Shown here one piece after another: positions 7,201 through 29,679 of a stretch of DNA of 64,000 nt. The notes below the pieces were generated by a model that ran no database searches, was not told the DNA's origin, and saw only the letters and a list, made by a program, of their open reading frames with translations. The stretch lies in NCBI GenBank assembly GCA_022072455.1, contig JAJVHY010000004.1, positions 186,001 to 250,000 on the forward strand. Direction: 5' to 3'. Position 1 is the first letter of the stretch. Every line of letters begins with the position of its first letter. The translations under genes and the position numbers were made by a program. Origin of the DNA: Verrucomicrobiia bacterium (GTDB lineage Bacteria; Verrucomicrobiota; Verrucomicrobiia; Palsa-1439).

Positions 7201-8377
7201 TTGTCAGCACTGAGGATTTTGCCCCCGCGGTTCCCACGTTGATCGCCCCAGCATTGGTCACCGTACCGCCGGTGACGGTCAGGGTGTTGCTAAACCCGGT
7301 ACCGCTGCCGATACTGATATTACCGGCCGACGGGTTCCAGGTCGCGTTGGCGTACACGCTGATGTTGTTGTTTGAGGCAACATTCTCCCCAATGTTGACG
7401 GCGCCGACTGTCGTCCATCGAGCATTGGTCAAAATGATGCTGTTATCGCGTGCCCCATTTTGGCTGATGTAGATTGCCCCGTTCGCCGCGGTCGACTCGG
7501 CCCCCAGTCCACCGATTCGGTACGTGTTGTTACTGCCACTCCCAAGAGCAATGTACACGTCGCCACCAAACAACTTGGCCCCGTTGGAAAGGATCAACGA
7601 GTTCCAACTCGCACCGCCGCCACCCACCTGCATGTTGACGGTGGTGCCGACGTTGGTCAGAGTAACACTACCGCTGACCGTGAGGACGTTGCCGGTCGCG
7701 GCAGTGTAGCCAACGTAGAACCCCCTACCACCGTGGTTCCAAACTCCACCGGTCTGGCTGATTGTGGTGATTGTGGCGTTCATGTTCGAAAAATTGTTAC
7801 CAAGCGTGAGGTTACCGGTGGGGTTCGACCAGAATAGTTTGCCGCCTTCGTTGAGGTAAATCGTAGGTTGGTTGCCGGACAGGACCAGCGTGGTAATGCC
7901 GGTCACCACGCCGCCATTGTCAATCTGCAGGCGCGCTCCGGTGCCCAGCCGCAACCCGGTATTGGTGAGAATCGTCGGCGAGGACACGCCGTTGGTGATG
8001 ATCACCGTAGTCAGTTGACCAAGCGAACTAATCGTACTCAGAAAGTTGATATTCAGTCGTCCAATCGGGTCGGCCAGCCCAGAATTCAGAATCACCGTGT
8101 ACGAGGCCGTGTCATTGGTCAGAACGACCCAGTCGTCGGGAGTGCTGGAGTTGGCACCAGGGTATGCGCCGTCCGGTGCACTCGACCACCAGATCGCCGA
8201 ATTTGTCCAGTACAACGGGTCACCGGACAAATTCGCCACCGAACTGGTCACCTGAGCCGAAGTGGAGGGAGCCAAAACGGGGAACAGCAGGAGCGCGCCA
8301 GCTACACCGAGCCAACGCGCCGTGCCAAGAAAACGAGTTGCCCCGCGTCTTGATTTGTTATTGCTATAAAAACTCAC
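4232..8377 (-). CDS. PEP-CTERM surface protein with autotransporter-type beta-strand repeats, copy A
   Basis: This 1381-residue protein has an N-terminal signal peptide (hydrophobic WLGVAGALLLFPVLAPST, then SAQ), a very long Gly/Asn/Thr-rich beta-helical body, and a C-terminal PEP-CTERM sorting signal: VVPEP, a membrane helix, then RRRRARK. The second half holds several PATR-like repeats of the form LTKxGxGxLxLxGxNxYSG (for example TKTGPGVLRLSADYTSSG). PEP-CTERM proteins are handled by an exosortase, which is not in this window; the product should be exported and possibly attached to the outside. The first half is strikingly similar to copy B, even in DNA, while the C-terminal third differs. 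Translation appears to start at a GTG; no ATG is available before the signal peptide and the ribosome site is weak. Ligand and function are unknown. Confidence 0.9.
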   Translation of the reverse strand: MSFYSNNKSRRGATRFLGTARWLGVAGALLLFPVLAPSTSAQVTSSVANLSGDPLYWTNSAIWWSSAPDGAYPGANSSTPDDWVVLTNDTASYTVILNSGLADPIGRLNINFLSTISSLGQLTTVIITNGVSSPTILTNTGLRLGTGARLQIDNGGVVTGITTLVLSGNQPTIYLNEGGKLFWSNPTGNLTLGNNFSNMNATITTISQTGGVWNHGGRGFYVGYTAATGNVLTVSGSVTLTNVGTTVNMQVGGGGASWNSLILSNGAKLFGGDVYIALGSGSNNTYRIGGLGAESTAANGAIYISQNGARDNSIILTNARWTTVGAVNIGENVASNNNISVYANATWNPSAGNISIGSGTGFSNTLTVTGGTVTNAGAINVGTAGAKSSVLTIQDGGKFFSRAVTVGGTSSSASNQYNVGGFGLSSTVTNWGIIVGANVSGGYNQLNITNALLLTPASIIGSGSSTNAAVVSSGGLWNLSGGELIIGSNAIHNSVTVNTGGVVTNANITVGKTGPGGPAATANNQLIVNGGAVWASALRVTNAANVVAFNSGTIGVTSATYSNGLAFVVGNGVNNATLQLGSGVHSFEKGINLLTNSYLKGNGATLDATITNTLIGGNIAIGADGGNTFTINGVMTGSANQLTKQDAGTVILAGNNDFSAPVVVSAGTLTIANSTSTGLGAAAPVTVSGGNFVLNNAGGTGVAGNIGVNSGTLFVNNTGASAGAGAASTVTVGGGFVTGNGTISGSMVLNTGTLTAGNNSLATLTLGSLTVNGGYLPFEFLNTGLDNDKLSVTTPGGLTINGGTVLLYTNNSTVRFDTVGLYYLIQHDGAIGGAGETAFTVGNQANTRTYNFGVSAGYVTLAIGGTGQGWNPGSNSTDTYWMNSTNWGGGSGPAPVAYDQLLFDGNAKPINTNNFISNTKFAGIMFTNSAGTFVLNGMAAGTNTVNLVGDVINRSANTQTINLPLVLDSGSRAFNTLNGNMIANGVISGSDSTVGLVKRGSRVLELTGANTYSGVTEIVSGVLRATDGGGLPAASNLKLNGGVLETSGTFSRSLGTSAGSLQWTGSGGFSARGGTLSVNLGGAGAGVTWGSGNFVPTSSALILGATTSDSTVKFINPIDLGSAQRTVQVDNGSAFVDAELAGILSGSSGGLTKTGPGVLRLSADYTSSGALTVSGGGLIANASISAGSDLSLATGTTLYGTGTIARVISGSGTVAPGLNPGILTVDQLNPSGGLDFTFEFTQLGSPDYTQAGASGNDVLRITNSLPFTVALGITNTVNLKVSAALVVGQTNVFRGGFYTDNSALFDDKLSNATFSVSGPGAGALVYWKTVNEAAFSQNGYVLEFGVLGQTVVSVVPEPNVFVLWLAGALTFWAARRRRARK
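7428..7723. repeat. Near-identical DNA block shared with copy B (partner 9850-10157)
   Basis: This segment of copy A and 9850-10157 of copy B align almost base for base, including an uninterrupted 44-nt identity (7494-7537 with 9916-9959). Differences are mainly third-base changes and a short insertion. It indicates recent duplication or gene conversion between the two PEP-CTERM genes. Confidence 0.85.
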
Positions 8378-8531: not shown

Positions 8532-10793
8532 TCAAGCCTTCAAGTGCCGCCGTGGGCGACGTTTGCACACCAGCAACAGCCCAAGTCCAACCCCCACCAA
8601 AACAAGTGAACCAGGTTCCGGAATCAAAACCAGGGTGATGTTGCCCGTTGTAGCCAGCGCAGACGTGTCCCACTGTAAACTGAGCGCCGTTACGTCGGGG
8701 AGATCCATAAAGGCGAAGTCCGTATCGGCGACGTGGCTGCCGAATTGGAACAACTGGTATGTTTGGCCGTCTGCCAAGGTGAAACCAGTGCTGTTGGTCA
8801 CTGCAAGCGTACCGCCGAAGGCCAGGCTGCCACTGACCACGATCAGGTCATTGCTACCGGGCCCAGCCAGTTCCAGCAACACCAGTGAGTTCGCTCGCAA
8901 GGCAACGTTACCGGTGATGCTCAGGCTGCCGACGGAGAAACCGGGGCTGAGAACACCGTCGTTGGTGAGGTTGCCGACGATCAGTCCGTCGCCGGTCAGC
9001 CGGGCGTTGCTGCTGACGACCAGCCCGTCTTGGAAAGCATGCGTCCCGCCAAGGATGTTGAAGTTGGCGGACTGGGTGCCGTTGCCAACGACGAATGCCT
9101 GCCCGTTGGTGATGAAGGTGCTGCTGCTGTTGAGGGTGCCGGAGTTATAGGCGACAGTGTTGACGGCGTTGGTGATCCGCAGTGCGTTGGCCCAGACCGT
9201 GCCGCCGTTGAGGGTTAACCGGTTGTTGGCGGTTGCCGCGGCGCCACCAGCACCGGTCACGCCCACGGTAATGTTGGCGTTACTGACGACGCCACCGATG
9301 TTGACCGTCAGACTGTTGTTGGTGGCATTGGCATTGCCGATATTGAGCGCGGTGCCCTGCAAGTTCCACAAGCCGCCGCTAGAAACGACGGCGGAATTGT
9401 TGGACGAACCATTACCAATCGTGCTCGCGCCGCTCCGCAACAGGGCATTGGTAATGTTCAGCACATTGAAGCCACGGCTGGTGCTCGCCCCGACGGTGAT
9501 CGTCCCATTCGAAACCGTGCTGGACAACCCAAACCCACCGACATTGTAGGTGTTGGTACCTGAGCTGGTGTTACCCACGGTGACATTGCCCGCCGCACCG
9601 CTAAAGAATTTCCCTCCATCTTGAATGGTCAGGACGGAGGACCCAGCGCCGCTGGTTCCGATCAGGACTGCCCCAGCATTGGTCACGGTGCCGCCCGCAA
9701 CGATGAGGTTATTACTGTAGCCGGCGCCGTTACCGATGGTGATCGTCTGGTTCAGCGGGTTCCAGACGGCATTGGAGTAGACTTGGATGCTATTATTCGT
9801 GCCCGCATAGCCAATGTTGACAGCCCCACTGGTCGTCCACCGGGCATTCGTCAAAATAATGCTGTTATCGCGCGCTCCTTGCTGGCTGATGTAGATGATA
9901 CCGTTCGCCGCGGTTGACTCGGCCCCCAGTCCACCGATTCGGTACGTGTTGTTACTGCCGCCACGTCCACTGCCAGTAAAAGCAATGTACACGTCCCCAC
10001 CAAACAACTTGGCCCCGTTGGACAAAATCAGCGAACACCAACTCGCTCCGCCACCACCCACCTGCATATTGGCGCTCGTGCCGACGTTGGTCAGGGTCAC
10101 ACTCCCGCTGACCGTGAGGACATTGCCGGTCGCGGCGTTATAGCCAACGAAGAACCCGGAGGCGCCGCCCATGTTCCACAAGCCACCATCCTGGCTGGTG
10201 ATCGTGGCGTTCAGGTTCGAATAATTGTTGCCCAGTGTGACGTTGTTCCCAGATGCGAGTCCCGCAAATAGTTTACTCCCCCCGTTGAGTGCAATCGACC
10301 AGTTAGTGCCGGTCATTGTCACAGCCGAGGTGACGCCGGTCATCACGCTGCCACCGTCGATCTGTAGGCGGGCCCCATTCCCCATGAGAAGTCGGCTGTT
10401 GGTGACGATGGTTGAAGAGGAGGCGCCGTTGGTTATAATGACTGTGGCGGGCAGCCCAGTGGAGGTGGTCGAATTCAAATAGTTGATGGCCAGCCGATCG
10501 AGCGAGTCGGCTAACCCGGAATTCAAAATCAGCGTGGCGGAGGCCAGATCGTTGGTCAGTAAGACCCTGTCTCTTGTAGTAACACCCTCGACATCATCGC
10601 CAGGGTACACTCCGTCCGCCGCACTCGACCACCAATTCGCCGAATTCGTCCAGTAGAACGTGCCATCGGTCGTGTTCGTCAACGTCCAGGCCACTTGGCC
10701 CCACGCGGTTGACCTTGTTCCGCAATACAGAACCATGAACGCGATGACGGCGCCGGCAATCCGCGATAGTTGCGGGTGATGCTGAACTTTCAT
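8532..10793 (-). CDS. PEP-CTERM beta-strand-repeat surface protein, copy B (mosaic)
   Basis: This 753-residue exported protein has a signal peptide (IAGAVIAFMVLYCG), a Gly/Asn/Thr-rich repetitive body and a C-terminal PEP-CTERM signal (LIPEP, hydrophobic helix, then KRRPRR). Its N-terminal two thirds follow copy A closely (shared stretches such as LILSNGAKLFGGDVYIA and YNVGGFGLSSTV), whereas the last 180 or so residues follow copy C (shared SPGFSVGSLSITGNV and LPDVTAL). It is therefore a recombinant between the neighbouring genes or their ancestors. A good ribosome site, GAGGAG at 10803-10808 on the minus strand, lies 9 nt from ATG 10793. Exosortase-dependent surface sorting is inferred from the signal. 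What it binds is not known. Confidence 0.9.
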   Translation of the reverse strand: MKVQHHPQLSRIAGAVIAFMVLYCGTRSTAWGQVAWTLTNTTDGTFYWTNSANWWSSAADGVYPGDDVEGVTTRDRVLLTNDLASATLILNSGLADSLDRLAINYLNSTTSTGLPATVIITNGASSSTIVTNSRLLMGNGARLQIDGGSVMTGVTSAVTMTGTNWSIALNGGSKLFAGLASGNNVTLGNNYSNLNATITSQDGGLWNMGGASGFFVGYNAATGNVLTVSGSVTLTNVGTSANMQVGGGGASWCSLILSNGAKLFGGDVYIAFTGSGRGGSNNTYRIGGLGAESTAANGIIYISQQGARDNSIILTNARWTTSGAVNIGYAGTNNSIQVYSNAVWNPLNQTITIGNGAGYSNNLIVAGGTVTNAGAVLIGTSGAGSSVLTIQDGGKFFSGAAGNVTVGNTSSGTNTYNVGGFGLSSTVSNGTITVGASTSRGFNVLNITNALLRSGASTIGNGSSNNSAVVSSGGLWNLQGTALNIGNANATNNSLTVNIGGVVSNANITVGVTGAGGAAATANNRLTLNGGTVWANALRITNAVNTVAYNSGTLNSSSTFITNGQAFVVGNGTQSANFNILGGTHAFQDGLVVSSNARLTGDGLIVGNLTNDGVLSPGFSVGSLSITGNVALRANSLVLLELAGPGSNDLIVVSGSLAFGGTLAVTNSTGFTLADGQTYQLFQFGSHVADTDFAFMDLPDVTALSLQWDTSALATTGNITLVLIPEPGSLVLVGVGLGLLLVCKRRPRRHLKA
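9850..10157. repeat. Near-identical DNA block shared with copy A (partner 7428-7723)
   Basis: Counterpart of the block in copy A. The 44-nt perfect run is 9916-9959. The copy B version carries a short in-frame insertion that adds Gly/Arg residues to the loop before the NNTYRIGGLG stretch. Confidence 0.85.
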
Positions 10794-16319: not shown

Positions 16320-17017
16320 ATCACTACATCCACATACTCGTTGCGGTGACTGTTCTTATGCCGTGTGCAAGCTGGGCTGGCGACGGGCAGCGGGTTCTTT
16401 GTGTCGGCGATTCCATCACGGCGGCGGATCACAGTTGGGTCAGCCTCATCGCCAAGTCCGGTAAGATCGAGACCATCAACGCCGGTCAAGGGGGACGCCG
16501 CACGGGCGCGGCCGTCGAGACGTTCGAGACCGCCGTGACAACCTCGCAATCGTTCAACCGCGTGATCTTTTTCCTCGGCGTCAACGACCTGCCGGGGCGC
16601 GATCCGGCACCGCCCGATAAGAAGGTGGCGCTGTGCGTAAAAAACATGGAACTCGCCATTGACCGGGCGCTCAAGACGCTTCCCGCCAAGGACGTCATTC
16701 TCGTCGCGCCGTGCAACGTCAACGCGGAGTTGATGCGGCAACCGCACAAAACCGACGCCGCCATGACCAAACGGCGGGAACGCAATGTCCAAAAGGGCTA
16801 CGATATTTGTCCGCCAATTCTGGAAAAACTGGAGTCCGCATACCGGCAACTGGCGCAGAAGAAGGGCGTGCAGTTTGTCAGTCTGTTGCGCGTGGTCAGT
16901 CCGGCAAACTTCCCGGACGGCTTGCATCCGGACAATGCCGGCCAACGCCAGATTGCGGATGCGATTCAGCCGGTCTTGGTCCAAACGTGGAAGCCTGGCG
17001 GAAAGGTTCAGCGATGA
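16316..17017 (+). CDS. SGNH/GDSL-family secreted esterase
   Basis: This 233-residue hydrolase has a signal peptide (IHILVAVTVLMPCASWAG) and all the main SGNH blocks: VGDSIT with Ser33 as the probable nucleophile, a Gly in block II (NAGQGG), LGVNDLP with the Asn of block III, and DGLHPDNAG with the catalytic Asp and His of block V. Such enzymes often remove acetyl or other acyl groups from polysaccharides. I prefer ATG 16316 to ATG 16310 because it forms an ATGA overlap with the preceding gene and lies 9 nt from AGGAG (16302-16306). It also ends in an ATGA overlap with the GH5-like gene, so the three are translationally coupled. Confidence 0.88.
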   Translation: MNHYIHILVAVTVLMPCASWAGDGQRVLCVGDSITAADHSWVSLIAKSGKIETINAGQGGRRTGAAVETFETAVTTSQSFNRVIFFLGVNDLPGRDPAPPDKKVALCVKNMELAIDRALKTLPAKDVILVAPCNVNAELMRQPHKTDAAMTKRRERNVQKGYDICPPILEKLESAYRQLAQKKGVQFVSLLRVVSPANFPDGLHPDNAGQRQIADAIQPVLVQTWKPGGKVQR

Positions 17018-18417
17018 GAGGGATTATCTTGGCAACGATGCTGATGACTTTGGCCGGCGCAGCTGTGCGCGCGAGTACCAATAACTTGGGGCACTACGTC
17101 CGGGTCAGCCCGCGCGACAGCCGGTACTTTGAATTGGACAACGGGCAGCCGTATATCCCGATTGGCCTAAACCTGGTCTCCCCACTCAAGGGGGAGATGG
17201 CGATCATGGCAGACTGGTGCGCCAAGCTCGCCGCGCAAGGTGGCAACTTCGCGCGGATCCGGCTGGACAGTGCGTTCTTCGAGATAGAGCACGCCAAGAG
17301 CGGCGAGTACGACGCGGAGAAAGCCAAACGCACCGACGAGATGCTGGCGTTGGCTCGCAAACACGGCCTCCGCGTCAAGCTCTGCATTGACGGGTTCCGG
17401 CACATTCACGAGACCGACGCGAAGAAGTTTGGGAAACCAATCCACCACGTCGCGAACGGCGGACTCGCCACCAACATGACCGACTGGGTGAATAGCCCCG
17501 CCTGCCGGCAACGGCACAAGGGCAAGTACGATTTCCTCGCCAACCGGTACGGCTCTGATCCTATCATTTTCGGCTGGGAACTCTGGAACGAGATGAACTG
17601 CGTCGCGGGCGGTGATGTGCGCGACTGGACCAAGGAGATGTTGGCCGAACTGCATCGCCGGTTTCCCAAGAACCTCTGCATGCAAAGCCTCGGGAGCTTC
17701 GACAGCAACTCGCAGCGGCCGATTTACCGGGACATCTGTCAAATGCCCGGCAACGATGTCGCCCAGATCCACCGGTATCTGGACCTCGGCGCGAGCCTGA
17801 AAGTCTGCCACGGCCCGGTGGACGTGCTTGCGGCCGAGGCGATCCGGGAAGTCCGCGGCTATCGCACGAACAAGCCCATTCTGCTGGCCGAAAGTGGCGG
17901 CGTGGAATGGCAGCACTCCGGGCCGTGGAAGTATTACGATCAAGACACCGAGGGGATGATCTTGCACGATGTGCTGTTTGCGCCATTCTTTGCGGGCGCG
18001 GCCGGCCCCGGTCATTTCTGGCATCGGGATTACGTGGCCAAACACGACTTGTGGTGGCACTTCGGCCGGTTTGCCCAAGCCGTCGCTGATCTTGACCCGC
18101 CGGCAGAGGCTTTCGAGGTGCAAAAACTCGATCATCCCCGCCTGCGCATCTACGTCTTGCGCGGCAAACGGACCACGCTCGCGTGGTGCCGGGACAAAGA
18201 AGCCACTTGGCAAACGGTGCAGGTCGAAGGTCGCAAACCGGAAACGCTCCACGGTCTCACCGTGACGTTGCCGGCGCCGGTGGACGGCGGCGCGGCGGTC
18301 ACGGTTTCGGCGTACGATCCGTGGACGGGAGAGAAGAACATTTTGAAAGCTGCCCCGGCGGGCATCACGTTGCCGGACTTCTCCCGCTCGCTCGTCGTCC
18401 GTTTGCGGGCCGAATAA
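17014..18417 (+). CDS. GH5-like (clan GH-A) secreted glycoside hydrolase
   Basis: This 467-residue protein has a signal peptide (MRGIILATMLMTLAGAAVRA) followed by a TIM-barrel glycosidase. The barrel begins with the substrate-entry strand IPIGLNLVSP, has the acid/base Glu193 in GWELWNEMN and a likely nucleophile Glu293 in LLAESGG, 100 residues apart as in retaining clan-A enzymes. A C-terminal beta domain (about 370-467) ends in SLVVRLRAE. The ATG at 17014 overlaps the upstream stop (ATGA) and follows GAAAGG by 7 nt; an open stretch to 16711 in the same frame is not coding. Family members include mannanases and glucanases, but the exact polysaccharide is not visible. It sits with an esterase and a permease, consistent with glycan breakdown. 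Confidence 0.82.
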   Translation: MRGIILATMLMTLAGAAVRASTNNLGHYVRVSPRDSRYFELDNGQPYIPIGLNLVSPLKGEMAIMADWCAKLAAQGGNFARIRLDSAFFEIEHAKSGEYDAEKAKRTDEMLALARKHGLRVKLCIDGFRHIHETDAKKFGKPIHHVANGGLATNMTDWVNSPACRQRHKGKYDFLANRYGSDPIIFGWELWNEMNCVAGGDVRDWTKEMLAELHRRFPKNLCMQSLGSFDSNSQRPIYRDICQMPGNDVAQIHRYLDLGASLKVCHGPVDVLAAEAIREVRGYRTNKPILLAESGGVEWQHSGPWKYYDQDTEGMILHDVLFAPFFAGAAGPGHFWHRDYVAKHDLWWHFGRFAQAVADLDPPAEAFEVQKLDHPRLRIYVLRGKRTTLAWCRDKEATWQTVQVEGRKPETLHGLTVTLPAPVDGGAAVTVSAYDPWTGEKNILKAAPAGITLPDFSRSLVVRLRAE

Positions 18418-18420
18418 CTC

Positions 18421-19320
18421 ATGTCGACCTTCCTGTTAATCCTGACAACGATCGTGTGGGGCTCGACCTTTTTCATCATCAAGGACACGATCCGCAACGT
18501 TGACCCGTTTTACCTCGTCTTCATCCGCAACCTCATCGCCGCGGTTGCGATGTCGCTGTACGTGTTTACCCGGGACAAGAAGGCGCTGTTCAACAAGACC
18601 ACCCTCACTCGGGGTGCGGTCCTGGGGTTGCTGCTGGCGACGACCTACAGTTCACAGACCATTGGCCTGAAGTACACGACCAGTGGCCACAGCGCGTTCA
18701 TCACCGGGTCGGCGGTGATTTTCGTGCCGATCCTGCTGTTCGTGATCTGGCGCATCAAACTGCACCCCTTGGACATCGTGTCCATTCTCGGGGTCTTTAC
18801 CGGTCTGTTTCTCCTGACTTGGGATGGCGATGGTCACATCAATCCTGGCGATCTCATCACCTTGATCACCGTGGCAGCCTACGCGGTTCATCTCATCAGC
18901 GCAGGCCGGTTTGTCAAAAACGTGAACGTGCCGGCGATGATCGCGCATCAGTTCAATTTCGCGACCTTGTTCAGTTTGATCGCCTACCTCGTGGCGGGCA
19001 GTGGTGGCTTGGCGGTGACGACCAAGTCGTTGTATGCCCTCGCCTATCTGGGCTTTTGCGGAACGCTGTTCTGCTACTTCGTCACCGTCTGGGCGCAGAA
19101 ACACGTCAGCGCTGTGCAAGTCGCGCTAATCTTTGCGCTCGAGCCGGTCTTCGCGGCGGTGTTCGCGTGGCTCTTCGCCGGTGAGACACTGCACCGCAAG
19201 GAATTCTCCGGCATGTTTCTTATCCTGGCCGGGATCATCTTGTATCAAACGGCCAAAAACCTGCGCGACCAGCGCGCCGCCATCGGGGCAAAACCAAACG
19301 CAGTTTTGGAAACAATATGA
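18421..19320 (+). CDS. DMT-superfamily (EamA) permease
   Basis: This 299-residue inner-membrane protein has ten predicted helices arranged as two EamA halves. The first half starts TIVWGSTFFIIKD, typical of the family, and the second contains LFCYFVTVWAQKHVSAVQVA and the end motif PVFAAVFAWLFAGE. The family exports or imports small metabolites such as amino acids or sugar derivatives. The start is ATG 18421, 3 nt after the GH5-like stop; it ends in an ATGA overlap with the first propeller gene. A decayed copy of its last 35 codons is found at 23760-23864 ahead of the third propeller gene. Confidence 0.92.
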   Translation: MSTFLLILTTIVWGSTFFIIKDTIRNVDPFYLVFIRNLIAAVAMSLYVFTRDKKALFNKTTLTRGAVLGLLLATTYSSQTIGLKYTTSGHSAFITGSAVIFVPILLFVIWRIKLHPLDIVSILGVFTGLFLLTWDGDGHINPGDLITLITVAAYAVHLISAGRFVKNVNVPAMIAHQFNFATLFSLIAYLVAGSGGLAVTTKSLYALAYLGFCGTLFCYFVTVWAQKHVSAVQVALIFALEPVFAAVFAWLFAGETLHRKEFSGMFLILAGIILYQTAKNLRDQRAAIGAKPNAVLETI

Positions 19321-21533
19321 AAACGAAAAATCCACTTGTCGTACGCGCTGCGCCTCTGCTTCTCGCAATCTTAACAGCTTGTACCACCCGGCCGAAAGTT
19401 TCGGAAGTTCAGGAGTGGAAGCCGGTCGAGCAGCCGGGGTTGGCCGCGGCACTGGCGAGCGCACCGGAACTGAAATTCGAGGAATTTGCCGAAGGGCCGT
19501 CGGTCTGCGTCGAGGGGCCGATCTGGTGGGTTCCCAACACCGGCGGCAAGACTTGGGACATGGTGATTATCTACAGCCGTGGCTATCCGGGCCCGCACGA
19601 GGCCTTCATCTACGACACCGCCACCAAGGAACTCAAAAAGGCGGCTGTACCTGAACTTGAAAAAGTCCGTTCCAACTTCCACATCGTTCCCTACTTCCTG
19701 ATCAACGGAAAAATGATCATCAGACCCGGCATCGGCAGCGATGTCTGCATTTACACCTATGATCCCGCCGCCAATGAACTGAAGTTCGGCGGGTATCCGC
19801 TGGGCGAGAACGTTGTCAGCGCTGATGGTCAGATGGCACCCAATGCGGACGGTTCGCTGTTCGGCGGCTTCGGCCCGTTTGGCGGTGACAAGACCAATCG
19901 CGCCAGAGTCGGCTTCTATACGATCGACCCCGTCACCCTGAAGGGCGAGCTTCTTGGCGAAGTCGGCCCGCCGAGCGATAGCCGGGCCTGGGAATATGGC
20001 GGCGTCGTGATGGATGGCGACTGGATCTATGCCCGCTATGGACACAGCCCCTGGCGGCTTTACGGAATGAACGTCAAGACGCACAAAGGCAAGGTGATTG
20101 CGGAGACCGAGCAGATCATTGGTGACCGCCAAACCATCACGTTCCGGACCAACAGCGAATACCCCGGCATCTATGTCACCATCACCGGACTCAAGGGCGC
20201 CCCAAAGGATGAAACAAAGGCCTTCTGGTTGCTCGATGGCGAGCTTACACCGTGCGCACTGCAGGATATGCGCGCGAGCACCGCCAAACCCGTCCCCCCC
20301 ATACCCGGCGAGAAGCGGGCTCATCCCCGAGGTAATTTCTATGGCGGCTCAGTTCCCAAGGGCATGGAGGTCATCCAAGGCCGACCAGACGCCGATGGCA
20401 AGGTGACCATCTGGTACCGTTTTAGCGACGCGAGTATGGCGGAAGCCGTACAGACCACCACCGGCGTCTGGCAGCGGGTCGAACTCCCTCCCGTGAAACT
20501 CTACCCCAACCCCATCCGCCGCATGGCCAACCTGTCCGACGGCTCGCTATTTGCCCTTGGCGAAAGCTATGGTCAGGCTCTGGTTTTCGACCCGAAGACC
20601 AAACAGCGCAAGATCCTCGGCGCGACCATGTCCGTCTATTCCCTGCTGCCCGTCGCGGACAAGCTCTACCTCTGCGGCTACCCGAGTTCGCAGGTGTGGA
20701 TCTATGACCCGGCCAAACCGTGGACCGTCGGCGCGGCCATGCCGGCGGATACACCTCCCGACAACGGCAACGAAGCCGAGGCCACCGCCAAGAGTAATCC
20801 GGCAAAAGTGGCCGTCCTGAAGGAATTTGCCGACATCCATATGCCTTGGGCGGCAGCGGAGGGGGCCGACGGTCGCGTGTATTTCGGCGGCAAGGTTGTC
20901 CGCATCGGCGAAGGTGGCGGCTTGGGCTGGTGGGATCCCCGTGAGAATAAGGGTGGCGGCTTCCACAAGCCGTTCGACAATTATCCGGTGTTCTGGATGT
21001 GCTCCGCTGCAAACGGACGCTACATCCTTTGCTCCACCAAAACAGCCGCCTCTCCTGACAATACGGACTACATTCCCCCGCGGGGACGGATCTTCGTTTA
21101 TGACACGACCAAACACGAGCTGATCCACCAGTTCGAAGATGAACGCCTGGTCATGCCCGGCTACATCACCGAGGCACAACCGGGCTTGGTCATGGGCTAT
21201 GCGCCGATTAAGGATGCGGCGGGCAAGTACACCGGCCTCCTCTACGGATTTGATCCGGCCGCCGGCAAGATCCTCTGGACTAAATCCGTTCCATTGGCGC
21301 CCCAGACCGCCTTCTCCTTCATGAAAAGAGGGAAGTATTTCTTCGCCAAAGGCCCGGATGGTTTCATCTGGGCGACGATGAACGGCGTTCTGGCGCGCAT
21401 CAATCCTCAAACTGCGGAAGTGTTACCGGTCGGCAAGATGGAAGATAACCCGCTCGCATTCGTCAACGGCGATGTTTACGTGGCTGGTTCGAATAAGTTC
21501 CGCAGAATCGTTGGGATCCAGGTGAAACCGTGA
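19317..21533 (+). CDS. Beta-propeller lipoprotein, paralog 1 of 3
   Basis: This 738-residue protein has a lipoprotein signal with LTAC at residues 19-22 (Cys22). The body is a series of blade-like repeats with Tyr/Phe-Asp-Pro or Asp-Thr turns (IYDTATKEL, YDPAANEL, IYDPAKPW, VYDTTKHEL, FDPAAGKI), suggesting a propeller of seven or eight blades with distant likeness to kelch or PQQ propellers. Strictly conserved stretches among the three paralogs include GPxWWVPN, MSVYSL/V/M, YFGGKVVRIG and KGPDGFxWATM. I recognise no named family and see no catalytic signature. It should be membrane anchored outside the cytoplasm and could bind or sense a glycan. It ends in GTGA, coupling it to paralog 2. Confidence 0.85.
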   Translation: MKTKNPLVVRAAPLLLAILTACTTRPKVSEVQEWKPVEQPGLAAALASAPELKFEEFAEGPSVCVEGPIWWVPNTGGKTWDMVIIYSRGYPGPHEAFIYDTATKELKKAAVPELEKVRSNFHIVPYFLINGKMIIRPGIGSDVCIYTYDPAANELKFGGYPLGENVVSADGQMAPNADGSLFGGFGPFGGDKTNRARVGFYTIDPVTLKGELLGEVGPPSDSRAWEYGGVVMDGDWIYARYGHSPWRLYGMNVKTHKGKVIAETEQIIGDRQTITFRTNSEYPGIYVTITGLKGAPKDETKAFWLLDGELTPCALQDMRASTAKPVPPIPGEKRAHPRGNFYGGSVPKGMEVIQGRPDADGKVTIWYRFSDASMAEAVQTTTGVWQRVELPPVKLYPNPIRRMANLSDGSLFALGESYGQALVFDPKTKQRKILGATMSVYSLLPVADKLYLCGYPSSQVWIYDPAKPWTVGAAMPADTPPDNGNEAEATAKSNPAKVAVLKEFADIHMPWAAAEGADGRVYFGGKVVRIGEGGGLGWWDPRENKGGGFHKPFDNYPVFWMCSAANGRYILCSTKTAASPDNTDYIPPRGRIFVYDTTKHELIHQFEDERLVMPGYITEAQPGLVMGYAPIKDAAGKYTGLLYGFDPAAGKILWTKSVPLAPQTAFSFMKRGKYFFAKGPDGFIWATMNGVLARINPQTAEVLPVGKMEDNPLAFVNGDVYVAGSNKFRRIVGIQVKP

Positions 21534-23713
21534 AAACAATGCTCCTCCGATTGATTGTCGTTGGCTTGCTTGCAACAAATTGCGCCGTCGCCCAATGGCG
21601 GCCAATCGAACAGCCGGATCTCGCCAAGACTCTGGAGGCTGCGCCGGAACTGAAGTTCGAGGAACTGGCCGATGGCCCGAGCGTCTGTCAGGATGGACCG
21701 GTCTGGTGGGTGCCTAATCCCGACGGCAAGACGTGGGATTTGTTGATGCTGTACAGCCGCGAGTATCCGGGACCGCACGAACTTTTCATCATTGATACCG
21801 GCACCAAAGAGGTCAAGCGACTCGACATCACCCAGCCTGGCGTGAATTTTCACATCCTCCCGTATTTCGTGCTGAACGGGAAAATGCTCATCAAACCCGG
21901 CATCGGTTCCAGTGACGTAAATCTGTTCACCTATGACCCGGCCAGCAACGACTGGCAGAACGCCGGTCTGCCGCTTGGCAAGGAGGTCGTGCGCGGCGAC
22001 GGCCCAATGACGGCCAACGAAACTGGCACGCTCCTCGGCGGCTTCGGCCCGCTCACGACGAACCGCAACAGAGTCGGCTTCTACACCATTGACCCGGTCA
22101 CCCACAAAGGCGACTTCCTCGGCGCGGTTGGCCCGGACAACCCGAAACTGTTCTGGGAATACTGCGGGGTCGTGATGGACGGCGACTGGATTTATGGCCG
22201 CGTCGGCAACACGCCATGGCGGTTGTATGGCATGAACATCAAAACGCGCGAAGGCAAGGTGATTGCCGAGACCGAGCGCATCATCGGCGAGCGCAGAAGC
22301 ATCACGTTTCAAACCAACCCCGCGTACCCGGGCGTGTACGTCACGATTACCGGGTTGAAGGGCGGACCGGTGGACAAAACGCACGCCTTCTGGCTGCGCG
22401 ATGGAAAGTTGACCTCGTGCGAACCAGTGGCGAGAAACTCCGTCCCTGTGCCGCCGTGGGCGGACGAGAAACTCGCGCAACCTCGTCGGTCATTCGCCGG
22501 CAGGATGGAAGGTCAACCACCCCCAGGCATCGAGTGGTACCGCGGCGCGGTGGATAACGACGGCCAAGCCCGCATCTGGTACCGCTACACCGACGCCACG
22601 ATGGCACAAGCGGCACAGGTCGCGACCGGCGAATGGCAGCGCATCGAGTTGTCGAACTTGAGAAGCTATCCCGCCCCGATCCGCCGCATGGCGCCCTTGC
22701 CGGACGGCTCGTTGTTCGCCGTGACGGAAGGCTACGGCCGGGCCGCCACGTTCAATCCCAAGACCTCCGAGCGCAAACTGTACGGCACCACCATGTCCGT
22801 GTACTCGATGGGAACAGTCAACGATCAGGTTTACCTGTGCGGCTACCCCGGCTCCCAAGTCTGGATTTATGATCCCGCCAAACCGTGGGACGTGGGCCGC
22901 AGCTTCGACACGCCGCCGGCCGCAGAGGCCCGGTCGACCGACAACCGCTCCAAAGCCGCGACCGCCCACTCCAATCCGTCGCACGTCACCACGCTCAAGG
23001 AATTCTGCGATGTTCACATGCCCTTCGGCATTGCCGCCGGGGCGGATGGCCGGGTCTATTTTGGCGGCAAAGTCGTCCGCATTGGCAACGGTGGCGGTCT
23101 CGGCTGGTGGGATCCGCAAGAAAAGAAAGCTGGCGGCTTCCACGAACCGTTCGACATGTACACCGTCTTCTGGATGTGCTCGGCTGCCGAAGGCCGGTAC
23201 ATCGTCTGTTCCACCAAACCCGTCGCCGCTGCCAACAATCCGGACTTCATCCCGCCGCGCGGCCGGCTCTTCGTGTACGACACGACGAAACACGAAATCA
23301 TTCACCAAGTAGATGACGAACGCCTCGGCATTCCCGGCTACATCACCGAAGCGTCGCCGGGATTGGTCATGGGCTACACCCCGGCCAAGACCGGTGGCCT
23401 GCTCTACGGCTTCGACCCTGCCGCCGGCAAGGTGCTGTGGACGAAACCCGTGCCGCGCGCGCCGGTCACCGCCTTCAGCGCCATTCGCCGGTGGCGCTAC
23501 GCCTTCACCAAGGGACCGGATGGATTCGTCTGGGCGACGATGGACGGCGTATTGGCGCGCATCAATCCGAAAACCGCTGAAGTCGTACCGGTCGGGAAGA
23601 TGGATGACGCTCAGCTCGCGTTCGTGGACGGGGATGTTTACGTGGCCGGCGCGACAAAGTTCCGCAAAATTGCCGGCATTCCTAAGGTGAGTGCATCAAA
23701 GATTCAGCCATGA
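21530..23713 (+). CDS. Beta-propeller secreted protein, paralog 2 of 3
   Basis: This 727-residue protein is a full-length paralog of its neighbours with the same blade order. It differs at the N-terminus: MKTMLLRLIVVGLLATNCAVA is followed by Gln without a good lipobox, so it is probably released by signal peptidase I rather than lipidated. Compared with paralog 1, one loop before the C-terminal third has shifted Pro/Ala/Arg-rich sequence. The GTG start at 21530 overlaps the preceding stop (GTGA). It ends at 23713 in an ATGA overlap with a reading frame that continues into paralog 3. Function is unknown; a periplasmic or secreted binding role is the simplest inference. Confidence 0.85.
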   Translation: MKTMLLRLIVVGLLATNCAVAQWRPIEQPDLAKTLEAAPELKFEELADGPSVCQDGPVWWVPNPDGKTWDLLMLYSREYPGPHELFIIDTGTKEVKRLDITQPGVNFHILPYFVLNGKMLIKPGIGSSDVNLFTYDPASNDWQNAGLPLGKEVVRGDGPMTANETGTLLGGFGPLTTNRNRVGFYTIDPVTHKGDFLGAVGPDNPKLFWEYCGVVMDGDWIYGRVGNTPWRLYGMNIKTREGKVIAETERIIGERRSITFQTNPAYPGVYVTITGLKGGPVDKTHAFWLRDGKLTSCEPVARNSVPVPPWADEKLAQPRRSFAGRMEGQPPPGIEWYRGAVDNDGQARIWYRYTDATMAQAAQVATGEWQRIELSNLRSYPAPIRRMAPLPDGSLFAVTEGYGRAATFNPKTSERKLYGTTMSVYSMGTVNDQVYLCGYPGSQVWIYDPAKPWDVGRSFDTPPAAEARSTDNRSKAATAHSNPSHVTTLKEFCDVHMPFGIAAGADGRVYFGGKVVRIGNGGGLGWWDPQEKKAGGFHEPFDMYTVFWMCSAAEGRYIVCSTKPVAAANNPDFIPPRGRLFVYDTTKHEIIHQVDDERLGIPGYITEASPGLVMGYTPAKTGGLLYGFDPAAGKVLWTKPVPRAPVTAFSAIRRWRYAFTKGPDGFVWATMDGVLARINPKTAEVVPVGKMDDAQLAFVDGDVYVAGATKFRKIAGIPKVSASKIQP

Positions 23714-23772
23714 CAGATGTTCGACAACTTGCCTGGATGCTGACGGTCCTGCTGCCGGTAAGCTTGCCGGCA
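23710..23772 (+). pseudogene. Leader fragment resembling the start of the gene at 27868
   Basis: The first 21 codons from ATG 23710 read DVRQLAWMLTVLLPVSLPA and match the start of the gene at 27868 (DTRQLAWVLAILLPVSLPA). About 51 of 63 bases agree. The likeness stops at 23772, where the sequence changes to a transporter tail in another frame. The frame stays open into paralog 3, which would give that protein an implausible 57-residue extension. Confidence 0.6.
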
Positions 23773-23864
23773 TGTTCCTCATATTGGCTGGCATTATCGC
23801 GTACCAGACGGTCAAGAGTTTACAGGAACAACGCGCCGTCGTTAGGGCTCAATGCAATTCATAA
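23760..23864 (+). pseudogene. Remnant of a DMT permease C-terminus
   Basis: In the frame starting 23760 this region translates as AGMFLILAGIIAYQTVKSLQ and onwards to a TAA at 23862-23864. It matches the last residues of the intact permease at 18421-19320 (SGMFLILAGIILYQTAKNLR and onwards). In both places the permease tail is directly followed by a propeller lipoprotein gene, so a permease-propeller pair was duplicated and the second permease was then deleted down to its tail. Confidence 0.8.
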
Positions 23865-23880
23865 AATGGAACAAACTAAT

Positions 23881-26088
23881 ATGAAACAACTTGGACAGTT
23901 AGTCGCGGCTCTGCTGCTGGCGGCGAGTCTGACCGCCTGCACCACTTCCACTGTCGTCAAAGAGGAGAAGCCCGGCGAACAGCCAGGACTGGCGGCGGCG
24001 CTGGAGAACGCGCCGGAACTGAAGTTCAAGGAGTTGGCCAACGGACCGGATACTTGCTGGGAAGGGCCGCTCTGGTGGGTGCCCAACCCGGACGGCAAGA
24101 CTTGGGATTTTGTTTTCGTCTACTATCCATCCTACTCGGGCCCCAACCAGGTCTTCATCTACGATACCGGCACGAAGGAACTTAAGAAGAGCGCTTGTCC
24201 CGAATTGGCGCAGGTCAAATTTGGCTTTCACCTCAACCGATTCTACATGGTCAACGGCAAGGCCTGCATCGTCGGAGGCTACGGGCCGGTCAGTCTGTTT
24301 GTCTATGACCCGGCAGCCAACGAGTTCAAGTTCGGCGGATTTCCCCTCGGCCAGGAAGGCGATGGGGTCGTGTTTGGCACAGAGGGCCTCGCCACGGCCA
24401 ACGACGACGGCACCCTGATTGGCGGGTTTGGCCCGTTGACCACCAAACGGAAACAAGCCGCCTTCTATACGATTGACCCGGTCACATTGAAGGGCAACTT
24501 CCTCGGCGAGGTCGGCCCAGAGAACCCGACCGCCGCTTGGGAGTACCGGCGCATCGTGATGGACGGGGATTGGATTTATGCATCACTGGGCCACACCCCC
24601 TGGCGGCTGTATGCAATGAACGTCAAAACGCGCGAAGGCAAAGTCCTCGCGGAAACCGAGCGATTCATTGGCGACAGAAACACCATCACTTTCCGGCGCA
24701 ACGAGAACTATTCGGGCGTGTACGGCACCATTATCGGCCTCAAAGGTGGCCCCAAAGACAAGACCCAAGCCTTCTGGCTGCGCGACGGCAAACTGACGCC
24801 TTGTGAGCCGGTCGAAAAGAACGGCACTCCCATCCCACCCTGGAAAGATGAGAAACTGGCTCAACCGCGCCTGAACTTCATGGGGGCCTTCGACGAGAAT
24901 GATCTCCCACCGAAGGGGCTGGAGGTTTTTCGCGGCCCAGTCGATCTCGAGGGAAAGGTGCGGTGCTGGTATCGCTTCACCGACAAAGCCATGGCCGAGG
25001 CCGCACATGTCCCGCCGGGCCAGTGGCAGAAAATTGAACTCCCGCCTGCTCAACTCTTCCCGGCCCCGATCCGGCACATTGCGCCCCTTCCCGACGGGTC
25101 GCTCTTCGCCGTGACCGAAGGCTACGGTCGCGCGGTCCGATTCAACCCGCAGACCGGCCAACGCACCACCCTCGGCCCGACAATGTCGGTCTACTCAGTC
25201 TGTCCGCTCGCGGAGAAAATCTACCTCTGCGGCTACCCAAGCTCACAACTCTGGATCTATGACCCGGCCAAACCATGGACCGTCGGTCAAAGCCCTGAAG
25301 CGCCGCCGGAACGACCGACCGGCAAGCGCAAAGTGCGCGCCACCGCCACGACCAACCCAGCCAACGGCGGCATGTTAAAGGAGTTCACCGACGTGCATAT
25401 GCCCTGGGCGACAGCGGCCGGCGCGGACGGACGCGTGTACTTCGGCGGCAAAGTGGTTCGGATCGGCAATGGCGGTGGCCTCGGCTGGTGGGATACCCGC
25501 GAAAACAAGGCCGGCGGGATTCACAAACCGTTCGACGCCTACCCGATCTACTGGATGTGCTCCGCCGGCAACGGTCGGTACATCATCTGTTCCACCAAGA
25601 CCGCCGGCGCTGCCGACAATCCCGACGTGAAACCACTCCGCGGCCGGCTCTTCGTGTACGACACCACGAAACAGGAAATCATCCATCAGGTGGAAGACGA
25701 ACGTATCGGCCAATTCCCCGGCTACGTCACCGAGGCGCAACCGGGCGTGGTCATGGGCTACACCGCAGCCAGCGAAGGCGGTCTGCTCTACGGCTTCGAC
25801 CCCGCCGCCGGTAAGGTGCTCTGGACGAAACCGGTGCCACGCTCACCTTCGACGGGCTTCTCCGCCATGAAAAAAGGCAAGTACTTCTTCGCCAAGGGTC
25901 CCGACGGCTTCATATGGGCCACCATGGACGGCGTGCTCGCACGCATCAATCCGCAAACCGCAGAAGTGTTACCGGTCGGCAAGATGGAAGACAACCCGCT
26001 CGCATTCGTCGACGGTGATGTTTACGTCGCTGGTTCGAATATGTTTCGCAGACTCACCGGCATCTCCCCGAGAACGGGGTCCAAGTGA
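23881..26088 (+). CDS. Beta-propeller lipoprotein, paralog 3 of 3
   Basis: From ATG 23881 this gives a 735-residue lipoprotein with LTAC at residues 17-20 (Cys20). It has the same blades as paralogs 1 and 2; its last 40 residues are nearly identical to paralog 1 (shared INPQTAEVLPVGKMEDNPLA), while a central blade (AVTEGYGRA) is closer to paralog 2. I reject the start at 23710, because the extra 57 residues come from the recombination scar described separately; ATG 23866 is a minor alternative. There is no strong ribosome site. It is followed by a 46-nt gap and the GH110-like gene. The role is unknown, as for its paralogs. Confidence 0.85.
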   Translation: MKQLGQLVAALLLAASLTACTTSTVVKEEKPGEQPGLAAALENAPELKFKELANGPDTCWEGPLWWVPNPDGKTWDFVFVYYPSYSGPNQVFIYDTGTKELKKSACPELAQVKFGFHLNRFYMVNGKACIVGGYGPVSLFVYDPAANEFKFGGFPLGQEGDGVVFGTEGLATANDDGTLIGGFGPLTTKRKQAAFYTIDPVTLKGNFLGEVGPENPTAAWEYRRIVMDGDWIYASLGHTPWRLYAMNVKTREGKVLAETERFIGDRNTITFRRNENYSGVYGTIIGLKGGPKDKTQAFWLRDGKLTPCEPVEKNGTPIPPWKDEKLAQPRLNFMGAFDENDLPPKGLEVFRGPVDLEGKVRCWYRFTDKAMAEAAHVPPGQWQKIELPPAQLFPAPIRHIAPLPDGSLFAVTEGYGRAVRFNPQTGQRTTLGPTMSVYSVCPLAEKIYLCGYPSSQLWIYDPAKPWTVGQSPEAPPERPTGKRKVRATATTNPANGGMLKEFTDVHMPWATAAGADGRVYFGGKVVRIGNGGGLGWWDTRENKAGGIHKPFDAYPIYWMCSAGNGRYIICSTKTAGAADNPDVKPLRGRLFVYDTTKQEIIHQVEDERIGQFPGYVTEAQPGVVMGYTAASEGGLLYGFDPAAGKVLWTKPVPRSPSTGFSAMKKGKYFFAKGPDGFIWATMDGVLARINPQTAEVLPVGKMEDNPLAFVDGDVYVAGSNMFRRLTGISPRTGSK

Positions 26089-26134
26089 AGGCAGTTCATT
26101 CACGACGAAACGGGAGCAATCCACGGAAGACTCT

Positions 26135-27871
26135 GTGAACATTGGTTCGCTGTGCAAATTACTGGCGGGTATCGTCATGATTCTACACCTTCCAATCGCT
26201 GCGCCTTCAAAGGCCGGGGAAATATCGCTCAGCCCCCACCCCGCGAATAGTTCGCCCGATCTGCGTTCCGCACTGGAAAACCTGCGCCAGCGTGGTGGTG
26301 GAACGCTCCAGCTCCAGTCCGGGCGCTATCCATGCCGCGGCACCCCGGTGGACATGTTCGGATATCAAACCACCGCGGCGGTACTGGTTAGCAATCTGGA
26401 GCATGTCACAATCGACGGTGGCGGAGCCACTCTTACGGCGTTGGAGGGCGGCCTCTTCATTTTCCGGGATTGCCGCCAGTTGCGGCTTCGCAATTTCACC
26501 ATCGACGCCGAACCGTTGCCATACACCGCCGGGCGGGTAGTCGAACTGCTCCCCAGCGAACACGCCTTCGACATCCAGCCGGTGGTACCAGCCCGGCCGG
26601 TTCCTGGCCGCCCGGTCCGCGCGATTCTCGCCTATGATCCTGAGCGGCATCGTCTGGCCGAAAACGGTTGGGAATTGTACCAAGCCCGGGGCGAAAGAGA
26701 CAAAGACCTGGCCTTCACCACGCCGGCCGGACTTTTCCGCATTTTTCAGGCGCGCTCCACTCCCCTGCCTGAAAAGGGGTGGCATATCGTCGGCCGGCAC
26801 CAGATTTACGAGCATAACGCCTTGGTCTTCCTTGGCTGCCGCGATGTGGTACTCGAAGACATCACGGTCCGAAGTGCCGCCGGCATGGCGGTTGTCGGCT
26901 GGGACATCCGTGATGCCAGCGTTCGCCGGCTGCGGGTCATACCGCCGGAAGGCGGCTGGATGTCAACCACCGCCGACGCCCTGCACTTTCGAAATTGCCG
27001 CGGCACGATCCTGATCGAGGACTGTGAATTTGCCCAGATGGGCGACGATGCCATCAATGTCCACGGCATGTACGGTCTGGTCACCGACCGCATTGACGCC
27101 CACACGTTGGTAGTGGCGCAGGTCCGACTGAATCCCACCTGGGACCAGCAGCGTCCCCCGTGGGATCCGCCCTTGCCCGACGACATCCTGGAGTATGGCA
27201 CCGGCGCCGAACCACTGTTGCCGCAGGGACAACTCCGCGTGGCAGAAGCACGGCGGGATCAGGCCCTGCGGCAAACCGTCATCCGTTTTACCGATGCGCT
27301 CCCGAAAGCGGTGGTCGCCGGCACCGTGCTGGCGAATGCCACGGCCAGCCCCGCGCTCCGCATCCGCCGTTGCCGGGTCCGCGGGAACCGCGCCCGTGGC
27401 ATGCTCATCCAAACGCGCGATGTCCTCGTGGAAGACTGCATTTTCGAAGACATCTCTGGGGCAGGAATTCATATCTGTACCGATGGCAAGGACTGGTGGG
27501 AAAGCCTCGGGGTCCGGAATGTTGTCATGCGGAAGTGCCTCTTCCGCCGGTGCAATTTCGGCGTCGCCCGACGGGCTGCCGCCTTGGACATCTTCGCGGA
27601 GTTGCCGGACGGAAGGCAGTCTGCCGCGGGGGTTCATCGTGGCATTCAGATTCTCGACAACACTTTTGACGCAAATACCGGGGCGGCCATCCATGTCGGC
27701 TCGGCCGACCAAGTCGAAATTCGCGGAAACCGTTTTGTCAACAGCGGCAAACCAGTCGTTCGCGTGTTCAACTCCCGGGACATCGTGCTTCGAGAGAATA
27801 CCGGGTTGGATAACAACAAAGGGATCTCCATTGAGGGAAATAGCCCGCCGTCCACGATCCGCATCGAATGA
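26135..27871 (+). CDS. GH110-like secreted right-handed beta-helix enzyme
   Basis: This 578-residue protein has a signal peptide (LLAGIVMILHLPIAAPSKAG) and a parallel beta-helix. Residues 303-311 read GDDAINVHG, matching the region of GH110 alpha-1,3-galactosidases that carries paired catalytic aspartates; the preceding strand (EDCEFAQM) also fits. A second helix region (RGMLIQTRDVLVEDCIFED) completes the fold. Family members remove terminal alpha-1,3-galactose from glycans. GTG 26135 is chosen because it stands just before the signal peptide and follows GGAAGA by 4 nt; the open frame back to 26015 overlaps paralog 3 and is not credible. It ends in ATGA overlap with the next gene. Galactosidase activity is inferred from a short motif, so a different beta-helix hydrolase is possible. 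Confidence 0.75.
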   Translation: MNIGSLCKLLAGIVMILHLPIAAPSKAGEISLSPHPANSSPDLRSALENLRQRGGGTLQLQSGRYPCRGTPVDMFGYQTTAAVLVSNLEHVTIDGGGATLTALEGGLFIFRDCRQLRLRNFTIDAEPLPYTAGRVVELLPSEHAFDIQPVVPARPVPGRPVRAILAYDPERHRLAENGWELYQARGERDKDLAFTTPAGLFRIFQARSTPLPEKGWHIVGRHQIYEHNALVFLGCRDVVLEDITVRSAAGMAVVGWDIRDASVRRLRVIPPEGGWMSTTADALHFRNCRGTILIEDCEFAQMGDDAINVHGMYGLVTDRIDAHTLVVAQVRLNPTWDQQRPPWDPPLPDDILEYGTGAEPLLPQGQLRVAEARRDQALRQTVIRFTDALPKAVVAGTVLANATASPALRIRRCRVRGNRARGMLIQTRDVLVEDCIFEDISGAGIHICTDGKDWWESLGVRNVVMRKCLFRRCNFGVARRAAALDIFAELPDGRQSAAGVHRGIQILDNTFDANTGAAIHVGSADQVEIRGNRFVNSGKPVVRVFNSRDIVLRENTGLDNNKGISIEGNSPPSTIRIE

Positions 27872-29646
27872 GCGATACCCGACAACTTGCGTGGGTGCTG
27901 GCGATCCTACTGCCGGTGAGCTTGCCCGCAGCGCCTCCTGCCGGCGACAACGGAATTCTGCCAGATAACCTGCCCTACGAAGTGGTTGATGGCGTGCGTT
28001 TTTATTCGCAAATCGCACCCCAGCCATGGCGCGACCATGACGATGTGATCGAAGGGTTCGACTGGTCGTTGCCGGATACCGCGCCGTCGCCCAAGGCCAT
28101 GTTCCGGGCGCGCGGCCAAGACCCCAAGATGTACCCCGTCCCGCTGTTGGGAAACATCATGGTGAGCTGGCGCGAGCTGGAGCCGGAGGAAGGTCGTTAC
28201 GACTTCGGCGTGATCGCCAAGAAAATCGAGCAGCGTGCCGCTGAGGGTTACCGCCGCTTCGAACTCCACCTGCTGGCGAGCATCTGGGCGATGGAGTTCG
28301 TTGACAGCGAGGGCAAAATCATCCCACCCGAGAAGCTCAACGAAAAACAACAAGGCCAACGGTCACGCGCCCCGACGGCGCCGGCATGGCTCGCTCAGTA
28401 CAACATTCCCACCAAGAGCGCCGTCGGGCTTGTCGGCGAAGGTTGTCAGATCACCAATTTCGACATTTTCCATCCCGCGTATCACAGTCGGTATCTGAAA
28501 CTGATCCGCGCGCTGGGCGAGACCGGAATTCCCCAGCGGCCAGACCTTTTGGCCGCTTACGTTCACATCGCCAGCTTCACGCGCGGCGAGGAAGGCGAAG
28601 GTGACCCGCCCGGCCAGCCCCACCACAAGGAGACCGTCGAACGCCTCCAAGCTTGGGCCGACGCGTTCAAGGGAAACTGCGGCAAGCTGATGTTTCTCGG
28701 CAACAATCCCGACCTCCTGCGGATCGCCTACTCGCTCGGCATGGGCCAGCGCAACGGCTACGTCGAACGTTATCTGCTTCACACGCACAACCCCGCCCTC
28801 GGGCAGACAATCGACACCAACGGTTACTTGGTCGTGGACGAATCCCTGCCGCCCATCGCCGAGAACCGCGTCTTCGGCGACGAAAACGAGGAGTATGACG
28901 CGCATAGCGAAGGCTGGGTCGCTCGTTTCGGCCCGCGTGAATCGTGGCCGCATCGTTACCGGGAAGCCACATTCCGTCAGCTCCAGATGCGCCGGAACTA
29001 CGTCTGGGAGCCGGTCAAGTCGAACGATCCTTACCTCACGTACTACCTCGCCTGCTCCCTCGGCCGGACCATTGCCGACACTGCCGATGCTTGGTGTTAC
29101 TTGCGCGAAAGCTACGTTCACGAAAACAATGTCCGCAAAGGCAAGGTGGTGCCGGTGAAAAATTTCGAGCGCTGGCTGCTCCAACGTGACTCCGCTGGCT
29201 ACGAGACCGAACCCGCCCACAAAATCATCTATCCGCCCACTGTCGAGGGTTTCATTCGCACCACGTACGTGAAGGGCTACAACTACGATTACGTCGCGCG
29301 GAAAGGAAAACGCTTCGGTTTTGCGCTCGATGATCGCTTCCTTCCGAAGCCGGCACCCGTCGCCATCAAGGTCACGTACTACGACGAGCAACCCTGGAAG
29401 CTGGTCTATCCAACCGCGACCGGCCCCGCGGCACGCTCCGTACCTTGCCGGGGCGATGGCGCTTTGCGCACGGCCACGTTCTTCCTGGCCGATGCCGTGT
29501 TTGCGGCTAGGAAGCTGGACTACGATTTCGAGATCCAGGCCACGAGCGAACCAGCCACGATCCGGTTCGTGAGAGTCATCAAGTTTGCGAAACCTCAATC
29601 GTCCCCCCGCAACACCGAAGCCCATGAATCGTCACATACACGATGA
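27868..29646 (+). CDS. Secreted TIM-barrel glycoside hydrolase-like protein
   Basis: This 592-residue protein has a signal peptide (LAWVLAILLPVSLPAAP) and a barrel that opens like GH42/GH14-type beta-galactosidases: VPLLGNIMVSWRELEPEEGRY is split here as the strand plus the W-x-E-L-E-P-E-x-G-x-Y signature at about residues 95-110. Further acidic stretches (SFTRGEEGEGD, VFGDENEEYD) may hold catalytic groups, but I cannot assign them. A C-terminal beta domain follows from about residue 490. The start overlaps the GH110-like stop (ATGA). I do not recognise a numbered family. Its leader is the source or sister of the fragment at 23710. A role in glycan breakdown is inferred from fold and neighbours. 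Confidence 0.65.
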   Translation: MSDTRQLAWVLAILLPVSLPAAPPAGDNGILPDNLPYEVVDGVRFYSQIAPQPWRDHDDVIEGFDWSLPDTAPSPKAMFRARGQDPKMYPVPLLGNIMVSWRELEPEEGRYDFGVIAKKIEQRAAEGYRRFELHLLASIWAMEFVDSEGKIIPPEKLNEKQQGQRSRAPTAPAWLAQYNIPTKSAVGLVGEGCQITNFDIFHPAYHSRYLKLIRALGETGIPQRPDLLAAYVHIASFTRGEEGEGDPPGQPHHKETVERLQAWADAFKGNCGKLMFLGNNPDLLRIAYSLGMGQRNGYVERYLLHTHNPALGQTIDTNGYLVVDESLPPIAENRVFGDENEEYDAHSEGWVARFGPRESWPHRYREATFRQLQMRRNYVWEPVKSNDPYLTYYLACSLGRTIADTADAWCYLRESYVHENNVRKGKVVPVKNFERWLLQRDSAGYETEPAHKIIYPPTVEGFIRTTYVKGYNYDYVARKGKRFGFALDDRFLPKPAPVAIKVTYYDEQPWKLVYPTATGPAARSVPCRGDGALRTATFFLADAVFAARKLDYDFEIQATSEPATIRFVRVIKFAKPQSSPRNTEAHESSHTR

Positions 29647-29679
29647 GAGTTGGACTGTGGAAACAGATCAAGCGGCCTC

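Follow-up and report, generated by a model that had tools for sequence, protein, structure and literature searches.

A short scar between two propeller genes appears to join the copied start of a nearby gene to the remnant of a lost transporter gene

The cassette and the two halves of the scar

The window, by which we mean the whole stretch of 64,000 nucleotides of Verrucomicrobiia DNA that was analysed, carries on its plus strand a cassette in the order permease, propeller 1, propeller 2, scar, propeller 3, beta-helix protein and the gene at 27868. The scar occupies about 170 bases between propellers 2 and 3 and, judged by its sequence, appears to be the remnant of a lost transporter gene together with the copied start of a nearby gene. 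That the permease-propeller order is intact at 18421-21533, as the preliminary description had it, is borne out by the ORFs and by Pfam. The parts of the cassette are listed below with the evidence for each.

18421..19320, + strand: EamA-type permease, intact, the source-like partner of the scar tail (Pfam EamA, 6.9e-39)
19317..21533, + strand: propeller 1, in ATGA overlap with the permease (ORF)
21530..23713, + strand: propeller 2, its TGA stop overlapping the ATG of the scar (ORF, junction check)
23710..23772, + strand: copied from codons 1 to 21 of the gene at 27868 (alignments, genome search)
23767..23772, + strand: joint CCGGCA, agreeing with the permease at 6/6 bases and with the hydrolase leader at 5/6 (overlap of the two alignments)
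23769..23864, + strand: 3' end and stop of a lost second permease, equivalent to the intact permease from codon 264 on (20/31 residues; omega ~0.07)
23881..26088, + strand: propeller 3, counted from its own ATG; upstream its frame is open as far as 23710 (792 aa; ORF)
26135..27871, + strand: beta-helix protein, encoded downstream of propeller 3 and ahead of the hydrolase (Pfam Beta_helix, 1.8e-17, on ORF 26015-27871)
27868..29646, + strand: gene with the copied start, named hydrolase in the preliminary description (no Pfam match)

The start of the beta-helix protein at 26135 was read from the sequence. The gene at 27868 returned neither a Pfam match nor a solved relative, and its NCBIfam hint of GH35 is weak (E 0.019, far below cut-off); "hydrolase" is used here as a label only.

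The preliminary description likened the leader half of the scar to the beginning of the gene at 27868, with about 81 percent of bases identical, and our alignment gave the same value (51/63 bases over 23710-23772). The core of this match is ungapped, 23722-23772 corresponding to 27880-27930 at 44/51 bases, and it reaches back to the ATG at 23710, the first 12 bases agreeing at 7/12 when counted by eye. The alignment score was 67, whereas the best among 2000 base shuffles was 30. A whole-genome search with the leader found the start of the gene at 27868 as its sole match besides itself (E 2.3e-10), and when 3329 open N-termini in the window were compared with the leader the hydrolase start scored 87, whereas the best outside these two starts scored 41. 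Upstream of the ATG, the end of the beta-helix gene and the end of propeller 2 showed no clear likeness beyond the ATG. As the C-terminus of propeller 2, GIPKV..K..P, also occurs in a planctomycete copy, propeller 2 is native almost to the joint; a leader copy carrying more than the hydrolase start was rejected, as no upstream sequence is clearly shared and the end of propeller 2 matches the planctomycete copy instead. The leader starts exactly at the ATGA overlap with the propeller 2 stop (23710-23713), a spacing present at 4/7 junctions checked from 16711 to 29650, the scar junction counted, and propellers 1 and 2 each overlap the preceding gene by four bases. From this overlap it can be argued that a real coupled gene once began at 23710.

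The tail half had been claimed to match the end of the permease in another frame, with 13 of the first 14 residues identical (GMFLILAGII-YQT), and it does so, the match extending to 20/31 residues over 23769-23861 with the stop codon at 23862-23864. At the DNA level 23767-23838 corresponds to 19208-19279 at 51/72 bases, with a score of 39 against a best of 29 among 2000 shuffles. Against the permease tail the scar tail reaches a score of 100, compared with 17 to 23 for the ends of five other EamA proteins (ORFs L030, L062, L063, L056 and L057), none of which resembles it. The pairwise alignments proposed in the preliminary description thus place both halves well above the likeness of other N-termini and EamA tails, and they show two pieces in the scar, first the beginning of a second copy of the gene at 27868 and then the end of a second EamA permease. 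As a permease, the scar most likely has no present function.

A whole-genome search with the permease returned the permease itself, the scar remnant (E 1e-5) and one 25% identical EamA protein elsewhere, and the EamA family search gave six stretches above cut-off. As the genome search, the family search and the ends of the other EamA proteins gave none, the assembly, which is 95.57% complete, lacks an intact second permease. Permease codons 264 onward were the only part matched, and no other piece of the second copy was found in the genome.

Relative ages and the propeller family

A codon model was fitted on a grid, with the tail tested over 31 and 24 codons. The tail gave an omega of ~0.07 (0.05 to 0.15 within ~1.2 log units) with saturated silent divergence (t 4 or more), and the propeller pairs gave an omega of ~0.1, their silent sites saturated and the best t at the grid edge. 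A tail that was neutral throughout in one lineage fitted less well, by 6.8 log units with 31 codons and 9.3 with 24, and in simulations of an always-neutral tail the observed difference was reached in 0/400 under each of 8 settings, so that the always-neutral model is rejected. The tail was thus under coding constraint in both lineages during most of the period before the loss. It follows that the second permease remained a coding gene, placed ahead of propeller 3, through the greater part of the period since its split from the permease at 18421, and was truncated only afterwards. The divergence of the tail from the permease (65% amino-acid identity) is about equal to that of propeller 3 from propeller 1 (~66%). 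This equality and the coding constraint support the earlier proposal of a duplicated permease-propeller pair that was subsequently truncated and became linked to a different leader.

The leader pair was best fitted by t 1.4 and omega 0.4. Imposing one common age on leader and tail costs 4.9 log units, a value reached in 2/1000 simulations, and the leader copy is likely, rather than certain, to be younger than the tail, since the stretches are short (21 and 31 codons) and codon choice near starts may be otherwise constrained.

The three propellers are 64 to 66% mutually identical, propeller 1 sharing 66% with propeller 3 and 65% with propeller 2. In a low-confidence model (mean pLDDT 58.3) the fold is similar to that of double beta-propellers, and as this model is poor the match supports only the designation "double beta-propeller". 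Close relatives of these proteins are very rare: within the order 2/11 genomes had matches (the window's own and one weak), within the class 4/384 at 1e-20, within the phylum 13/387 at E 1e-3 (nearly all weak), and within the class of the planctomycete 3/397 at 1e-60. A scan of species genomes found one propeller locus, L027, in a Planctomycetia MAG, and the same MAG has a second propeller copy on another contig, L053 (the copies lie at L027 8288-10555 and L053 10487-12739). In a tree of 9 propeller rows, with the weaker relatives in L045-L050 left out, propeller 3 groups with L053 (support 84/99), which is 66% identical to propeller 3 compared with 59 to 61% for the others, and L027 is nearest to propeller 2. 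As propellers 3 and 2 match different planctomycete copies, the second pair is old, and the split of the propeller 3 line from the rest appears older than the separation from the planctomycete genes, whatever route the genes moved. Since propeller 3 groups with one of two unlinked planctomycete copies, the permease-propeller pair may also have arrived already diverged, rather than having been duplicated inside this genome.

The permease, the scar leader and the scar tail matched 0/14 of the relatives' loci, the relatives being distant and some loci short. Among 365 class genomes the permease had no match at 1e-30 except its own, and in 8 chosen genomes it matched in 2, at only 25 to 27% identity. 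No genome with the proposed intact order was found among the relatives searched.

Several further likenesses were observed in the window and at the planctomycete loci. Propellers 1 and 3 share an 88-base tract of 93% identity (21419-21506 and 25965-26052) against a mean of ~70%, matched by 0/1000 column shuffles, which looks like gene conversion between the two after their split. Propeller 1 reaches an identity of 0.85 with L027 near alignment position 630, and their best common tract is 26 bases at 0.96 (2/1000 shuffles reach it). The gene after the propeller in L027 (10552-13167) has a beta-helix-like start, 24% identical to the window's 26135-27871 protein (E 1.9e-16), and in that protein the beta-helix-like region is followed by an esterase domain in one fusion. 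Over 430 bases the window (16574-17005) is 71% identical to L027 14248-14676 in opposite orientation; on the window side this stretch overlaps the ORFs at 16310 and 16711, and as these are in different frames the gene call there may need checking. Diverged repeats of 67 to 72% identity pair 6662-8254 with 9078-10697 and 52719-53355 with 59910-60548, which suggests other duplicated genes in the window.

Origin of the joint

The alignments of leader and tail overlap at 23767-23772, and this CCGGCA is a short run common to both sides that fits illegitimate recombination at a short match. The accessible portion of a Salmonella study gives a deduced cut-off of 8 bp or more for true deletion joints (PMC3411829), against which a six-base match is short; later erosion is possible. 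An assembly chimera is excluded by divergence, the leader differing from its source at 14% of bases and the tail at 29%. The scar was also examined for a promoter, a terminator or RNA structure of its own, and each was rejected, the site scan giving 0 promoter-like and 0 terminator-like sites, the folding a z of -1.14 with 29/200 shuffles equally stable, and the search for inverted repeats none of 14 or more.

Based on these data we propose that the scar is the joint of a deletion, or of a similar illegitimate recombination, between the start of a hydrolase copy and the end of a second permease, and we regard this as its probable origin. The earlier order would have been propeller 2, hydrolase copy, second permease, propeller 3, beta-helix gene and hydrolase. 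The deletion would have run from codon 21 of the hydrolase copy to roughly codon 264 of the second permease, with CCGGCA as the meeting point, so that the remainder of both genes was lost, and propeller 3 would have retained its own ATG, which the joint would by chance have put in frame with the copied start. Both matches with their controls, the CCGGCA, the codon tests, the ATGA start and the old second pair argue for this account. Against it, the intact order was seen in none of the genomes searched, the hydrolase copy is deduced from 63 bases only, the six-base match is one base off on the hydrolase side as well as short, and the age difference of the halves depends on 21 and 31 codons. Moreover, a short templated insertion would leave an equal trace.

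In such an insertion a break in the second permease would have been repaired with ~60 bases from the hydrolase start, the front of the permease being lost. The younger look of the leader and the presence of only the first 63 bases of the hydrolase gene would both follow, yet the copy starts precisely at the start codon with the ATGA spacing, which is rare for a random patch, and we consider this route unlikely. A single tandem duplication with its ends in the permease tail and the hydrolase leader was at first favoured for its economy, as one step gives the leader-then-tail order with propellers on either side, a novel joint being formed and a second permease never having existed. Such a joint would make the halves and the duplicated genes of one age and the tail non-coding from birth, whereas the codon model rejects such a tail and a shared age of the halves carries the cost given above (4.9 log units, 2/1000 simulations); the one-step joint was rejected on these codon tests, and we attach very little weight to it. 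Chance similarity of a signal peptide and an EamA tail, for which the composition bias of signal peptides and membrane helices could be invoked, is exceedingly improbable, as the shuffles, the other N-termini and the other EamA tails come nowhere near the observed scores.

The hybrid frame and known systems

The frame from 23710 is open into propeller 3, giving a 792-residue reading frame that stays in phase over 36 codons after the joint. The chance of the open frame is ~0.105, and with phase ~0.035, values that apply to a feature noticed after the fact. The own ATG of propeller 3 lies 167 bases past the propeller 2 stop, whereas the scar ATG overlaps that stop as ATGA. According to the accessible portion of PMC10666635, an ATGA overlap couples translation and a gap of ~20 bases nearly abolishes coupling. 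Since genes must overlap or nearly abut to be coupled, the scar may act as the coupled start of propeller 3. It is therefore conceivable, though doubtful, that the hybrid is a selected working leader, such that ribosomes ending propeller 2 would restart at 23710 and read the 792-residue product; this reading concerns present function and is compatible with any origin of the scar. The open frame, its phase and the ATGA overlap speak for it. Against it, propeller 3 has its own signal peptide right at 23881, containing LTAC, which we take to be lipobox-like, and the 57 additional residues are read in a different frame from the permease tail and gave a poor structural model. We would only tentatively suggest that through a single deletion propeller 3 acquired a new start coupled to propeller 2 and an N-terminus with two leaders, in place of the coupling that went with its permease; the scar would then be an example of a recombination joint that became a leader for translation and export.

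The locus offers a readable record of the rebuilding of a transporter/propeller cassette, in which an old pair, a younger leader copy and the cut between them can each be dated roughly by codon changes. Translation of the hybrid frame, if it occurs, would show a deletion handing a gene a new coupled start; otherwise the scar is an ordinary fossil, mainly of use for annotation, since gene callers may start propeller 3 at 23710.

The literature on such scars provided background only, and the scar is best viewed as a well-preserved example of a common type of event, an ordinary record of bacterial gene rearrangement. Like the truncated pseudogenes left as gene remnants in bacterial operons, it is a short decaying 3' end beside an intact paralogue, but unlike those remnants it is attached to the 5' part of a different gene and leaves the frame open into the next one. 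As in the microhomology joints described in the accessible part of PMC3411829, distant sequences meet at a short shared run, whereas the cut-off deduced there for true deletion joints is 8 bp or more and the joint of the scar has 6 bp and is old. As in the ATGA-overlap translational coupling covered by the available text of PMC10666635, the stop of propeller 2 and the start of the hybrid frame share a four-base overlap; in contrast to those systems, the putative coupled start of the scar is recombinant.
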